A DNA stretch of 22,703 bases, from the IMG/VR virus record IMGVR_UViG_3300046799_000049, positions 1 to 22,703 of that record; one strand, 5' to 3'. Shown here piece by piece: positions 13,073 through 18,543 of the stretch. The number at the start of each line of letters is the position of its first letter. Position 1 is the first letter of the stretch. The position numbers and the translations under genes are program-made. Source of the DNA: a virus. The notes beneath the pieces are model-generated. The model saw only the letters and a list, made by a program, of their open reading frames with translations. It had not been told where the DNA came from and did not search any database.

Positions 13073-14212
13073 TTACCCCAGGCTGGCGGCCCGCTTGTTT
13101 CGGACCGCAGCCGCTGCAGCCGCCTGGCGAGCCTCACGACCGGACAGACCCGGCGTGGAGCGCGCGCCGGGATCGGCTGCACGAGTCGCTGCAATGGCGT
13201 CGGGACCATTCCCGACGCGCGGCTTGCCCTGGGGTACTGGCTGGGCTGCTGGAGGGGCGGACTGGCTGCCGAGCGCACTCAGCAGCTGAGATTTGAAAGC
13301 AGGGTCTGCGGTCGCAAGCGCCTTGAGCGCGTCCAGCGACATCGTGGCACGCAGCTCTTTCTCGAGGTGCGCTGCAATGTCCGGGTAGGAGGCGTCTGGA
13401 TGCGCCTCCTTCAGGCGCTGGACGCGCGCGCCTGCGTCCGCGTACGACGCGAGGACGGGGTACGTGGCCGCGTGCTGCGCCTGCTTGAGCTCAGCCGTCA
13501 GGACGTCTGCGCGGCCCTTGAACTCGGATTCCTTGACCGTGTTGGCGCGCTCAGCCTTGATCGCGTCGAGCTCCTCGCGGAGCAGCTGCACCTCGGACTT
13601 TGTGCCCTGCAGCTCGAGCTGGTCGGCCGTGGGCGGCTTGTACTTGCCGTCCACGATCTCGCGGGTGAGCTGCTCGTACGTGAGCCCGCGCTCCTTCGCG
13701 AGGAGCTCCAGGGGCGACAGCTTGACCCGCGCCTCCTGCTCGGCCTTGTAGCGCTTGTTCTCGTCCTCGAGCTGCTTCGCGCGCTGCTTCGTCTCGTACG
13801 ACTCTCGCTCAGCCCGCAGGGCGTCCGCCATCGCCTGGCGTTGCGCGGGGCTGAGCGGGTCCGCCGTCGCCTGCGGCGTCTCCGCAGCCGCCCCAGCCGC
13901 CGGGGTCGTCGCGGCAGGGGCAGCAGCCTCCGCCGCGGCCGGCGGCGCGTCAGCAGCAGCGCCAGGGGCGGCCGCTGCGCGCTTCGCCTCCAGCTTCGCG
14001 GTGATGCGGGCGAAGCGGTCGCTGCGGGTCTCGCGCGCCGCAGGACCGTCAGACTGCTCGGGGGCCGCGGCAGGGGCGCCGCCAAGAGGAGCGCCACCAG
14101 CGGGCGCAGCAACAGGCGCAGGAGCAGCAGCGCCAGCATCGCCCCCAGCGGGGGCAGCAGCAGGGGCAGAGGCGGCTGCGGGCGCAGCAGAAGCGGGGCT
14201 ACCATCACTCAC
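13073..14212 (-). CDS. Scaffolding protein candidate
   Basis: A 379-residue, mostly helical protein between portal and capsid genes. Residues 1-50 and 75-118 are extremely Ala/Pro-rich and probably disordered. Residues about 120-160 and 195-240 are charged coiled coil (ALRAERESYETKQRAKQLED, VQLLREELDAIKAERAN). The end is a basic Ala-rich helix, GREARQAAAAAAVRNKR. A basic C-terminal helix is what coat-binding ends of scaffolds look like. It starts at GTG 14212, overlapping the portal stop (GTGA), and ends three bases before the capsid start codon. Scaffold is an inference from position and composition; no sequence motif settles it. Confidence 0.8.
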   Translation of the reverse strand: MSDGSPASAAPAAASAPAAAPAGGDAGAAAPAPVAAPAGGAPLGGAPAAAPEQSDGPAARETRSDRFARITAKLEAKRAAAAPGAAADAPPAAAEAAAPAATTPAAGAAAETPQATADPLSPAQRQAMADALRAERESYETKQRAKQLEDENKRYKAEQEARVKLSPLELLAKERGLTYEQLTREIVDGKYKPPTADQLELQGTKSEVQLLREELDAIKAERANTVKESEFKGRADVLTAELKQAQHAATYPVLASYADAGARVQRLKEAHPDASYPDIAAHLEKELRATMSLDALKALATADPAFKSQLLSALGSQSAPPAAQPVPQGKPRVGNGPDAIAATRAADPGARSTPGLSGREARQAAAAAAVRNKRAASLG

Positions 14213-16119
14213 ATCATCATCGGCACTCCGGGCGCCCCAGCGGGAAGCTGGGCTGCGTCAGGGGGTACGGGTTCACCGCCCGGCGGAAGTGCCGCGGCGT
14301 CTGCAGGGGCTGCCTGCTGCTGCTCAGGCGCGGCGTCCATGGGCGGGAGGCCCTGGAGCGCCAGACAGTCATTGATGTACTGACGCAGACGCTCGAGCAC
14401 GTCCTCGGGCGCGTCCTGGCAGCGCTGCGACAGGTACGAGCGGCGAGCGATGTCGGCGGCGAGCGCCAGGTCCTGGTAGGGCTCGGGGTACGACTCGTAC
14501 CCGTCCAGGATGCGCTCGACGTCGTACATGACCATGTCCATGTCCGCGAGCTCGATGCGCGCCGCCGCGTCCGTGTCGGGCAGGTCGAGCGCGAGCTGCT
14601 GCGCGGTGGGCCTCGAGATGAAGCCCGACGCGATCCACTCGCTGACCATCGCCATCTTGCCGGCGGGCGTGCTCGGCAGGAGCGACGTGGGCCAGCAGGT
14701 CAGCCGGTACTTGTTCTCGGCCATGTGCACGGCCGACCACTTGACCTGCTTCACGAGCGTCGCGCGGCCGCGCTGGGTGCGCGCCATGACCGTGTACTCG
14801 CTGTTATCCTCCGACGCGCGCTCGTTCAGCTCCTCGAGCAGCTTCACCACGCCCATGTACGCCTGCTCGAACGCGCGCCCCGGGATCTGCTGGCGCTGCG
14901 TGGTCTGGTCCTGATGCTCGCGCAGCGCGGCGCCCGAGTCGAGACCTGCAGGCTTCTTGGCCTCCGCGGCCATCTGACTGATTCCGAGCTCGCTCATGAA
15001 CTGTTCGCGGGCCTGGTTCACGACCTCGTCGAGCTGCAGCGGCTTCGGGTCGAAGGCTTGGATCATGGGAGGGATCGGCCCCTTGTACCGGACGATGCTC
15101 AGGGGCGCCGTGCTGAGCTTCTCGACGCGCACCTCAGCGTCTCCGTGCACCAGGCACCAAGCGGTGGCGCCACGGTCGAGCAGCTCGTCGCCGCGCTTCA
15201 GCGAGTACAGGATACGCGCCTGCGGGTCGCGACCGGCCTCGGCGATGCCGGAGCCGTAATAGCCCATCTGACGTTCCTGCCAGACGTAGCGGACGAACGG
15301 CAGACACCACTTCCAGCCGCCCTCGCCGGTGTCGTACAGGTCGCCGCTCGACAGGCTGATCACCAGCCGCCCGTCCTTGCCATCCTTGCGCGAAGGCCTG
15401 CGGAAAGCGAAGACCACCATGACGTCGTCGCACGTCGAGTCCTGCGTCAGCCACATGTCGAGCTTGTCGTTCGACTGCGGGCCGTCCGCGTCGTCAATGA
15501 CCTTGTCGAGCTTCGGGTCGTCCTTCAGGTTCCACATCTCGCGCACGACGTCGCGGGCGATCGGGATGCGGTAGTAGATGCACAGCGGGTCACCGCGCAG
15601 GCCGTCGCGCGGGTCTACCCAGACGGTGCCCGGCAGGCAGCGCTCAAGGCAGGGCTCGCCCGTGTCGGGGTCGAGGTAGCCGTAGACGAAACCCGTACCC
15701 ACCACCGCCGCGTCGACGAACACGCGGGGCATGATCTCGTACGCCTTCAGGTCGTGCAGCTGCCCCTCGAGCACACGCGTCCGGAGCCGCGCCTGACGCT
15801 GCAGGTTGAAGTCGCCTTCCGACGTCAGGTACATCGGCTTCGGCCGCTGCGTGGCGATCTGCGAGGCCGCGGTGTTGACCACCTGGGCGATCAAGTTGAA
15901 CCGCACGCGGTCGCGCGTGGAGACGGTCGAGCCGTTCCCGGCCACGTTCATGTTCGAATACAGCTCCATGTGGTGCCGATCGAACTTGAGCCGCGTCTCG
16001 CTGAGCTCGCGGATGCGCCGGAGGGTCGCCCAAACGTCCTCGTACGCCTTGCCCTCCTTCGCCTTCCACCAGCGGTCGGCGAGGCGCGTGCGCGTCCGGC
16101 TCGAGCGGCGGTCAGTCAT
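14209..16119 (-). CDS. Portal protein, podovirus type
   Basis: A 636-residue protein. The N-terminal part carries the mixed alpha/beta portal core: KFDRHHMELYSNMNV, then VRFNLIAQVVNTAASQIATQRPKP, then VDAAVVGTGFVYGYLDP and PGTVWVDPRDG. A long helix with PIPPMIQAFDPKPLQLDEVVNQAREQFMSELGIS follows in the clip/stem region. A Pro/Gln/Ala-rich tail ends in MMM. Portals form the twelve-subunit ring at the capsid vertex through which DNA is pumped by the terminase. ATG 16119 is used rather than a TTG at 16128: it overlaps the upstream gene by eight bases and has GGAG about eleven bases upstream. The length and motif order fit P22-like or related large portals. Confidence 0.88.
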   Translation of the reverse strand: MTDRRSSRTRTRLADRWWKAKEGKAYEDVWATLRRIRELSETRLKFDRHHMELYSNMNVAGNGSTVSTRDRVRFNLIAQVVNTAASQIATQRPKPMYLTSEGDFNLQRQARLRTRVLEGQLHDLKAYEIMPRVFVDAAVVGTGFVYGYLDPDTGEPCLERCLPGTVWVDPRDGLRGDPLCIYYRIPIARDVVREMWNLKDDPKLDKVIDDADGPQSNDKLDMWLTQDSTCDDVMVVFAFRRPSRKDGKDGRLVISLSSGDLYDTGEGGWKWCLPFVRYVWQERQMGYYGSGIAEAGRDPQARILYSLKRGDELLDRGATAWCLVHGDAEVRVEKLSTAPLSIVRYKGPIPPMIQAFDPKPLQLDEVVNQAREQFMSELGISQMAAEAKKPAGLDSGAALREHQDQTTQRQQIPGRAFEQAYMGVVKLLEELNERASEDNSEYTVMARTQRGRATLVKQVKWSAVHMAENKYRLTCWPTSLLPSTPAGKMAMVSEWIASGFISRPTAQQLALDLPDTDAAARIELADMDMVMYDVERILDGYESYPEPYQDLALAADIARRSYLSQRCQDAPEDVLERLRQYINDCLALQGLPPMDAAPEQQQAAPADAAALPPGGEPVPPDAAQLPAGAPGVPMMM

Positions 16120-16360
16120 AGTCGCCAAACTCCGCGCGTCGGGCCTTGAAGTCGCGCAGCGCGGCCAGCTCGTCGCGCTCGTCCTGGTTCAGCGGCAGCG
16201 ACCTGGTCTGCTCGCGCTCGAGTTCTGCCGCAGTCTGCTGCGGGACGGCGAACTCGACGGCGAACGCGCCCCAGGACGCCTTGACGGCGCCCCGAGCTCG
16301 CAGCTCATCTACGAGCGCGACCCACTCAGCAGGTGCAGCAGACGATGAACTCGCAGCCAT
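16112..16360 (-). CDS. Small unknown protein preceding the portal gene
   Basis: An 82-residue acidic protein. Its Ser/Ala-rich N-terminus leads into two helical blocks, AEWVALVDELRARG and ERDELAALRDFKARRAEF. There is no signal, membrane segment or cysteine motif. ATG 16360 is the only in-frame ATG, and its stop overlaps the portal start by eight bases, so it is the first gene of the head operon behind the candidate promoter at 16430-16456. Its position is where some phages keep small portal or terminase partners. I do not recognise a family and assign no function. Confidence 0.65.
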   Translation of the reverse strand: MAASSSSAAPAEWVALVDELRARGAVKASWGAFAVEFAVPQQTAAELEREQTRSLPLNQDERDELAALRDFKARRAEFGDYD

Positions 16361-16429: not shown

Positions 16430-16456
16430 ATTACAGCCAGGCTGGCCGGGTGTCAA
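16430..16456 (-). promoter_or_regulatory. Candidate sigma70-like promoter for the head operon
   Basis: Reading the minus strand, a perfect TTGACA at 16456-16451 is followed 15 bases later by TGTAAT at 16435-16430, with TAATCC at 17 bases as the alternative -10 register. The spacer is short or the -10 is weak, so the match is good but not ideal. It lies in one of only two real gaps of the window, about 70 bases before the 82-residue gene, and points into it. The spacer holds a 6-bp inverted repeat (CGGCCA gcc TGGCTG) that could be a weak terminator of the lipoprotein gene or a binding site. Confidence 0.4.
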
Positions 16457-16468
16457 CTGCGCCGGCAG

Positions 16469-16924
16469 TCACAGTTCGGCGATGGGCTGCGGCGTGAACG
16501 TTCCGTCCTCGGCGTAACACCCATAGACCACCTGCCCGGGCGTGTCCTCGGCGGGCGCCCGCTCGAGCACCTTGGCGACCGACCCGCTCCCAATCTGGAG
16601 CGTGTCGCCGTCCACGGCATAGACCAGGCTCACGGTGTTTGGCCCCACGTCGCACGTGCCGTGGGTCTGGTGAATGGTGGCCTCCTCGCCCGTGGCCGTG
16701 TAGGTGCCCGCGTAGGCCTCCACGCCGATGCTGCCGTCCGAGAGCTGGCACGCCATCGCTTCGGCGTACGTGCCGTCGGCCTCGAAGCTCACCCCGTAGG
16801 CGCACTCGGTCTCGCTGCCGGGCGCGAGCCAGTCGCCCACCAGGGCCGGCACATCCTCGCCCCCGTCATCGCCGCAGCCCGCCGCCCATAGCGCCAAGAG
16901 CGCCACCAAAGTCGCTGATCTCAT
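16469..16924 (-). CDS. Secreted lipoprotein with lipocalin-like Cys-rich body (phage cargo gene)
   Basis: A 151-residue protein. Residues 1-16 form a type II signal peptide (basic MRS start, hydrophobic core, lipobox AAG before Cys17), followed by a CGDDGG linker. The body shows the compact beta pattern GDW … VSFEADGTYAEA … YAGTYTATG, with four further cysteines (in TECAY, AMACQ, GTCDV and YGCYA contexts) that could form two disulfides in the periplasm. The +2 residue is Gly, not Asp. ATG 16924 is used because a GGGGGAAA site precedes it and the signal peptide begins there; an upstream ATG at 16987 would bury the signal. It resembles host-type lipoproteins of myxobacteria. A superinfection-exclusion or surface-modifying role is possible but unproven. 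Confidence 0.8.
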   Translation of the reverse strand: MRSATLVALLALWAAGCGDDGGEDVPALVGDWLAPGSETECAYGVSFEADGTYAEAMACQLSDGSIGVEAYAGTYTATGEEATIHQTHGTCDVGPNTVSLVYAVDGDTLQIGSGSVAKVLERAPAEDTPGQVVYGCYAEDGTFTPQPIAEL

Positions 16925-16980
16925 GATTTCCCCCGGCCGGCGATCTTGCCACAGGCCTGAGGGCTTCGGGTAGTGAGGGC

Positions 16981-17003: not shown

Positions 17004-17038
17004 CACGGGCTACACCGAAAGCAAACCTATGGCCCGCA

Positions 17039-17068
17039 AGGGGAGACGCCCCAGGGCCTGTCTCCCCT
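17039..17068 (-). terminator. Hairpin after terL, possible weak transcription terminator
   Basis: AGGGGAGAC (17039-17047) and GTCTCCCCT (17060-17068) form a perfect 9-bp GC-rich stem with a 12-base loop, starting nine bases after the terL stop. On the minus strand the stem is followed by TTGCGGG, not a real U-tract, so intrinsic termination is doubtful. It may instead pause polymerase or stabilise the terL transcript's 3' end. Its position between the packaging genes and the lipoprotein supports a transcript boundary. Confidence 0.45.
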
Positions 17069-17076
17069 CCCTTGAC

Positions 17077-18543
17077 TCAGCGGTTCCACCAGTCGCCAGC
17101 CTCCGACGCCCGCAGCGCCGCGCGTTCGCGCTCGACGTAGGCGGGGTCGTCCGGGGTCTGCCGCGTCGTGTTCGCCTTTGGCGGCAGCGCCTCGTTCAGG
17201 TAGGCCATGTGGGCCTTTTCGCCGTACAGGAGCGTGTCGCAGCAGTGGTTTTGCATGCCCTTCTTCTCCTCGAGGCGGTACTCGTCCCTCCAGGGCAGCG
17301 AGACGGCCTCCTCGGACAGCGGCGCACACGCAGGCTGGCAAAGGATGATGCGCGCCGCGAAGAGCTCCGTGTTCACGAACTCGATGCCGGCGCGCTTCTC
17401 GGTCTTCTCCGCAGCCAGCATGATCGGCATGCCGTACTCCCCGGGCTTTGGACGCTCGCCCGCCTTGGTCATGCCGACGTAGCGCTGGTTCCACTCTTTC
17501 ACGTAGGGCGCGCCCAGGCCGCCTGCGTCGCCCACCAGCATGTCCGGCCGGTACGTGTGGCACAGGTCCGCGGTGACCTTGGCCGCTTGGTCGGTCAGCA
17601 GCCCGACCTGCTTCATGCTGCAGAGCACGTATACGGTGTTCGAGTGCGGGGCCGAGCAGAGCACCGACCACGCGCAGGCGCTCGTGGTGCCGAAGTCCAC
17701 CGCGATGGTGTGCGTCCAGGTCGCGCGGTTGTAGAGCGGCGGCGCCTCGGCCAACAGGTCGTTGCGCCCTGCCACGTACTGATACACCTGCATGCCCGGG
17801 TCGTTCACGAACAGGCCCAGCCACTCGCGCTGATAGGTCGCGCTCTCGATGCCGCCCAAGCGCGCCGCAGCCTTCGCAAGCTCCTCCTCGGCGTCCCGCG
17901 GAAAGCACTTGTTCTGCAGCATGTCCCAGTGGTGGACGCTCCAATTGTGCTTCTCGGTGCCCTTACAGATCTCGAACCAGTGCCCGGCGCGCGTGAGGCT
18001 CGGCGTGCCGCACAGGGTGAGCTTGCCGCCCGTGGTCGCGAGCATCGGGTGCATGACGTCGTTGCACAGGTACTTGAGCAGGGACGCGTACGTGGCCACC
18101 TCGTCAAAGTACGCCGCGGCCACAGCGAAGCCGCGCAAGAGGTCCACCGCGCCCTCGTCGCTTATGCCCCAAAACAGAATGACCGCGCCCCACGGCGTGC
18201 GGAACGTCCCATCGGTCTTGTTTGACACGAGCGGGATACCGGCTCGTTTCGCCGCGCGCTCGAGCTTGTGCCAGTGCAGGGCCTTCGCTTTCTTCTGCGT
18301 CTCGGCGCCGATGACGACGTACTCCTCGAAGCCCGCGTCCAGCGCGTCGAGCAGGGCCGAGCGTGGGATGAACTCGCTCTTACCCGCGCGCCGTCCAGGG
18401 TGCGCCGCCTTGAACTGCGCGGGGTCGTCGCGGAGGGCGAGCTGCTTGTCGAACAGCTCCGAGCGCAGGGACTCGCGCATGTCGGCGCGCTGCGCCTTCA
18501 GCTCCTCCAGGGTCAGGAACTCGACCTCGAGCGCGCAGCCCAC
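17077..18543 (-). CDS. terL: Terminase large subunit (packaging ATPase/nuclease)
   Basis: A 488-residue protein with all expected motifs. Walker A is PGRRAGKS (49-56). Walker B is AAAYFDEV with Asp147/Glu148. A coupling-type motif, LTLCGTP, lies at 175-181. The RNase-H-like nuclease acidic residues are Asp283 (AVDFGTT), Asp339 (VGDAGG) and Asp436 (HCCDTL). It pumps DNA into the prohead through the portal and cuts the concatemer. GTG 18543 is the start: AGGAGG lies seven bases upstream, within the end of terS. It is the last gene before the hairpin. The length is normal for the family. The cysteine content is high for a terminase but spread out, so no metal site is claimed. Confidence 0.95.
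   Translation of the reverse strand: MGCALEVEFLTLEELKAQRADMRESLRSELFDKQLALRDDPAQFKAAHPGRRAGKSEFIPRSALLDALDAGFEEYVVIGAETQKKAKALHWHKLERAAKRAGIPLVSNKTDGTFRTPWGAVILFWGISDEGAVDLLRGFAVAAAYFDEVATYASLLKYLCNDVMHPMLATTGGKLTLCGTPSLTRAGHWFEICKGTEKHNWSVHHWDMLQNKCFPRDAEEELAKAAARLGGIESATYQREWLGLFVNDPGMQVYQYVAGRNDLLAEAPPLYNRATWTHTIAVDFGTTSACAWSVLCSAPHSNTVYVLCSMKQVGLLTDQAAKVTADLCHTYRPDMLVGDAGGLGAPYVKEWNQRYVGMTKAGERPKPGEYGMPIMLAAEKTEKRAGIEFVNTELFAARIILCQPACAPLSEEAVSLPWRDEYRLEEKKGMQNHCCDTLLYGEKAHMAYLNEALPPKANTTRQTPDDPAYVERERAALRASEAGDWWNR

Follow-up and report, generated by a model that had tools for sequence, protein, structure and literature searches.

The DNA analysed here (the window) is a linear, 22.7-kb IMG/VR record of 22,703 nucleotides, in which the packaging, head and tail-side genes follow one another on the minus strand (Table 1). 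Between the gene for the large terminase subunit (terL) and a small gene that precedes the portal gene lies a single open reading frame (ORF), here denoted the lipoprotein gene, which is separated from the terL stop by 152 bp and from the 82-aa gene by 108 bp. The initial annotation, which had singled out this gene as isolated amid tight junctions, was exact in its coordinates and gap distances and correct about the isolation: between terS and position 1003, all remaining junctions measure between -17 and +10 bp. An orthologue is present at the same place in another IMG/VR record, IMGVR_UViG_3300046656_000472 (L002).

Table 1. Genes and candidate signals around the lipoprotein gene
Feature	Position	Strand	Basis or remark
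terS	19125-18547	minus	gene order
terL, terminase large subunit; near edge of the slot	17077..18543	minus	phrog_2, E 4.6e-31
Hairpin GGGGAGAC...GTCTCCCC, terminator-like without T run	17038..17069	minus	z -2.3; less pronounced in L002
Conserved leader of the lipoprotein gene with GGGGG ribosome-binding-like run	16925..16973	minus	alignment with L002
Lipoprotein gene, 151 codons, 151 aa	16469..16924	minus	ORF (ATG at 16924, TGA ending at 16469) and translation; L002 orthologue under purifying selection
Type II signal peptide MRSATLVALLALWAAG, predicted cleavage before Cys17	16877..16924	minus	lipobox pattern scan; 15/16 residues identical in L002
Mature acidic domain (135 aa; pI 4.05) with the lipidated Cys and four others	16472..16876	minus	predicted all-beta, lipocalin-like (low-confidence models)
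Promoter-like TTGACA-15-TGTAAT, directed towards the head operon	16430..16456	minus	identical in L002; short spacer (15)
Small pre-portal gene, 82 aa; far edge of the slot	16112..16360	minus	leave-one-out HMM finds counterpart beside portal in relatives
Portal / head-tail connector	14209..16128	minus	phrog_332, E 3.1e-9
Scaffold-like gene	14212-13073	minus	gene order
Major capsid gene	13069-11885	minus	gene order
Tail-side genes		minus	follow the major capsid gene

Comparison with L002 indicates that the lipoprotein gene is a real coding sequence, because dN is lower than dS (0.095 and 0.336, respectively; dN/dS 0.28) and the nucleotide differences are biased towards third codon positions (12/18/31). 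The two proteins are 82% identical and differ by a single in-frame codon indel. Purifying selection rules out a spurious ORF, and ORFs on the opposite strand were rejected as true genes given that the third-position excess matches the minus frame. The GC content (0.700), GC3 (0.895) and codon z (-1.84) of the gene are inside the range of the other genes in the window. By the same comparison, the lipoprotein changes faster in amino acids than the products of the neighbouring genes: terL is 97% identical at the protein level with dN/dS 0.20, and portal 99% with dN/dS 0.035, so that at similar synonymous divergence (portal dS 0.290) the nonsynonymous rate of the lipoprotein gene is ~9 times that of portal. 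The terS products are just 64% identical, compared with the 97% of terL, which places a mosaic boundary within the packaging genes; just before terS (19227-19129, minus strand), there is a micro-ORF for a 32-aa membrane peptide, MNHAEVVLWATRFVCGLGLLLVVGWLFEHRWW, with a clear counterpart in L002.

Around the lipoprotein gene, a consensus scan called neither a terminator nor a promoter. A hairpin begins ~8 bp past the terL stop, and the 108-bp downstream gap, which is 96% identical to that of L002, contains the only TTGACA-15-TGTAAT pair in the window (0 in 60 shuffles), a string with matches only in the window and L002. No clear promoter precedes the gene and no terminator follows it, while the hairpin follows terL and the promoter-like site follows the gene; from these signals, the lipoprotein gene therefore appears to occupy the boundary between two operons, one ending before it and the next starting after it. 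The promoter-like site probably drives the small pre-portal gene, portal and the head genes.

A predicted exported lipoprotein

The N-terminus of the product (MRSATLVALLALWAAG followed by CGDDGGE) conforms to the type II signal/lipobox pattern, with the N-terminal positive charge, the hydrophobic core and the lipobox ending in Cys all recognizable. In a scan of the window and all fetched relatives, this pattern matched only the lipoprotein ORF and its L002 orthologue, against an average of 0.25 for the shuffled window. The mature protein contains 7 prolines among 135 residues and four cysteines beyond Cys17 (C41, C59, C91 and C136); in L002, the lipobox, Cys17 and all four further cysteines are kept. 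Pattern and conservation thus bear out the initial description of an exported lipoprotein with a CGDDGG linker and four extra cysteines, and the protein is predicted to be exported and lipid-anchored. In Myxococcus xanthus, Lys at position +2 is common in inner-membrane lipoproteins and Ala at +7 in those of the extracellular matrix (PMC3222651). The phage lipoprotein has Gly at +2, and because neither +2 Lys nor +7 Ala is present, the outer membrane is our default guess for its location, if the host sorts lipoproteins like Myxococcus.

No known family matches the lipoprotein sequence above its cut-off, and the protein appears to be new at the family level: the match to DUF5640 (PF18692; E 0.053) scores 13.8 bits, below the gathering cut-off of 28.5, that to TIGR03066 scores 18.7 bits, below the cut-off of 93.25, and a PHROG search yielded no virion or other family. 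The two AlphaFold2 models are poor (pLDDT 40 and 42) and consist of beta strands in an all-beta arrangement; a Foldseek search with the second model returned nothing significant, and its weak matches included NlpE, CirpA, ToxS and retinol-binding protein. These models and matches weakly hint at a lipocalin-like beta domain.

Searches of phages, plasmids, IMG/VR and ~85,000 genomes of bacteria and archaea retrieved L002 as the only relative of the lipoprotein, and a model of the protein run against the records used for the comparison below found nothing beyond the window and L002. The bacterial and archaeal genomes were scanned with short exact peptide patterns, by which distant relatives would be missed; these scans detected no relative of the lipoprotein or TerL in bacterial genomes and no provirus via terL. 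With the major capsid protein as the probe, no relatives were found. This uncultured phage group has no close named member.

A variable slot between terL and the pre-portal gene

Relatives for comparison of the slot were fetched with TerL, both as a single sequence and as an alignment. Leave-one-out HMMs recovered the pre-portal gene in each of the nine contigs compared, with one weak match: E values range from 9e-8 to 7e-17 for the window, L002, L003, L004, L007, L008 (where it is the second-best match), L010 and L011, and the gene of L005 is the best match at E 0.04; L006 matches the same as L005. The L009 contig is rearranged, with terL not followed by portal.

The comparison of the terL-portal gap, which the initial annotation had proposed as a check, places the lipoprotein gene only in the window and L002; the slot is empty in L003 (3 bp), L005/L006 (53 bp in L005) and L008 (114 bp). 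In other relatives, the slot is occupied by a PhoH gene (L007, 3018-3731; PF02562, E 3.5e-86), by a phrog_11049 protein (L010), by a 99-aa orphan (L004), or by a 130-aa protein that matches solved structures of Tad1 (L011, 4987-5379; 8kbb, E 3.3e-23; PF24729 at 1.3e-5, just under the cut-off), accompanied by further genes. Slot sequences show no similarity among the relatives except for the window with L002. Because the slot of the relatives is empty or holds unrelated genes, and the lipoprotein is confined to the window and L002, the comparison supports the classification of the lipoprotein gene as moron-type, an accessory gene in a cargo slot that is flanked by the packaging genes and the head operon and varies in content. 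The moron reading of the initial annotation thus stands, with additional support from the faster amino acid change of the protein and the placement of its gene between the hairpin and the promoter-like site. The simplest history would be a gain of the gene later than the divergence from L003, the slot being one that repeatedly accepts cargo. In L010, extra genes also separate the pre-portal gene from portal and, therefore, the region around the slot is labile as a whole.

Two further features of these contigs deserve mention. In L011, ORFs on the opposite strand come after the homologue of Tad1 (Thoeris anti-defence 1), and one of the extra genes before portal in L010 (8139-8521) resembles the window protein encoded near 21.8-22.3 kb.

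The lipoprotein gene is of an ordinary kind, a moron-type accessory gene, and its interest is raised by the cargo slot that it revealed. For this uncultured phage group, the slot provides a simple positional rule by which more anti-defence and other accessory genes could be found, and the comparison stands even if the guess about exclusion discussed below fails. The suggestion that the phage arms its lysogen, also made at the outset, found no support: the 22.7-kb record of the window, possibly a fragment, contains no tyrosine integrase, the short-peptide scans found no relatives in bacterial genomes, and tyrosine integrases occur only in two distant relatives, L004 and L010 (records of 27 and 37 kb), so the claim is unsupported for the window phage. 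No record, whether of the window or of the relatives, contains DNA polymerase A; this is of no help on lifestyle.

Possible roles at the host envelope

The reading that we favour, tentatively, is that of an accessory gene in a variable slot whose product is exported to the outer membrane, binds an envelope component and, most likely, blocks rival phages. Produced during infection, the lipoprotein would pass through export and lipidation and be sorted to the outer membrane, where its acidic, probably disulphide-bonded, lipocalin-like domain would bind a component of the host envelope. The host surface would thereby be altered in favour of the phage, most likely by preventing rival phages from adsorbing or from getting their DNA into the cell, in a manner resembling that of T5 Llp and Rtp45 without kinship to either. 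Such a mechanism would fit the predicted export and anchoring of the protein, its rapid evolution, and its gene's place in an accessory slot and absence from relatives whose virion genes are homologous. Superinfection exclusion or receptor masking, as proposed in the initial annotation, is a plausible guess for the function of the lipoprotein, with exclusion the leading one, which would make it a small candidate for phage-phage competition at the level of the envelope.

The main rival to exclusion is a different envelope role, namely, that a lipocalin-like lipoprotein serves to bind or scavenge small molecules, or to counter a defence that senses the envelope. This possibility draws on the Tad1 anti-defence protein and the metabolic-type PhoH that occupy the slot in L011 and L007, respectively, and on the weak lipocalin-like hints from DUF5640 and Foldseek; nevertheless, PADLOC yields no match for the lipoprotein and the models are too poor for a ligand site to be read, and we consider such a role somewhat unlikely. 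A broader proposal, in which the gap between terL and the pre-portal gene is a standing slot for counter-defence and host takeover, and the lipoprotein is the first of a new lipocalin-like outer-membrane family that remodels the host surface, seems doubtful to us.

The gene could, alternatively, be a passenger, that is, a lipoprotein gene acquired fortuitously from a host and of no present benefit to the phage. The protein is indeed a lipoprotein of host style, and its only phage relative is that of L002, yet the short-peptide genome scans found no donor bacterium, and the purifying selection noted above, with the signal, lipobox and cysteines kept over ~0.3 synonymous substitutions per site, makes this explanation quite improbable.

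Two roles in the phage's own lytic and assembly functions are unlikely. Outer subunits of spanins are lipoproteins, and Rz1 is small, proline-rich and encoded beside or inside the gene for the inner subunit. With no obvious spanin pair elsewhere in the window, the lipoprotein might be taken for an unlinked outer-membrane spanin or another lysis lipoprotein; against this, it is not proline-rich, has four extra cysteines and lacks a C-terminal membrane segment, its isolated gene has no adjacent coiled-coil inner subunit, no PHROGs spanin match was obtained, and the relatives with an empty slot lack the gene. Furthermore, the likely lysis genes are located 4-5 kb upstream (21761-20905, minus strand), where an ORF for a 43-aa membrane protein is followed by one for an SLT transglycosylase that has a signal peptide of its own, a probable lysis cassette; a lysis role is accordingly very unlikely. 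The least likely of the explanations is a virion component or an accessory packaging or head protein expressed together with the late genes: the gene shares its strand with the packaging and head genes on either side, but the product has a signal peptide and lipobox, relatives whose head genes are homologous lack the gene, it evolves at the elevated nonsynonymous rate given above, and no virion PHROG family was matched, in agreement with the initial statement that the protein is not a known virion part.

Comparison with known systems

Like Llp, Cor and Rtp45, the window protein is a phage-encoded, exported, predicted outer-membrane lipoprotein with cysteines that likely form disulphides. The members of these families block adsorption or infection through receptor binding. 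Those known work on outer-membrane receptors from the periplasmic side, and complexes of Llp and Rtp45 have been deposited in the PDB (PMC9586334, PMC12685063). Searches of PHROGs, Pfam and PDB chain sequences revealed no resemblance of the window protein to any of the three. The window lipoprotein (135 aa when mature, with four extra cysteines) is about twice as large as Llp and Rtp45 (~6-7 kDa), and llp adjoins a receptor-binding gene, whereas the lipoprotein gene does not.

Bacterial lipocalin-like lipoproteins of the DUF5640/TIGR03066 type share with the phage protein the LVGxW...DGTY...GTYT...VDGDTL...ER spacing, the all-beta prediction and a short acidic linker after the lipidated Cys, although the phage protein scores far under the curated cut-offs. 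The likeness to phage moron genes consists in presence or absence within an otherwise syntenic region, separation from the neighbouring operons, and hairpin and promoter-like signals nearby. Morons have a promoter and terminator of their own and are transcribed separately from the phage operons, whereas the lipoprotein gene showed no clear promoter before it and no terminator after it; nor is its composition foreign. Differing base composition or codon use is a commonly noted trait of morons, not a strict requirement.

At the level of the locus, P2-like phages and P4-like satellites carry hotspots of accessory and anti-viral genes (PMC9122126). The slot described here resembles these hotspots in being a fixed position with different accessory cargo in each relative, and differs from them in its location between terL and a small pre-portal gene and in its occurrence in an uncultured phage group.
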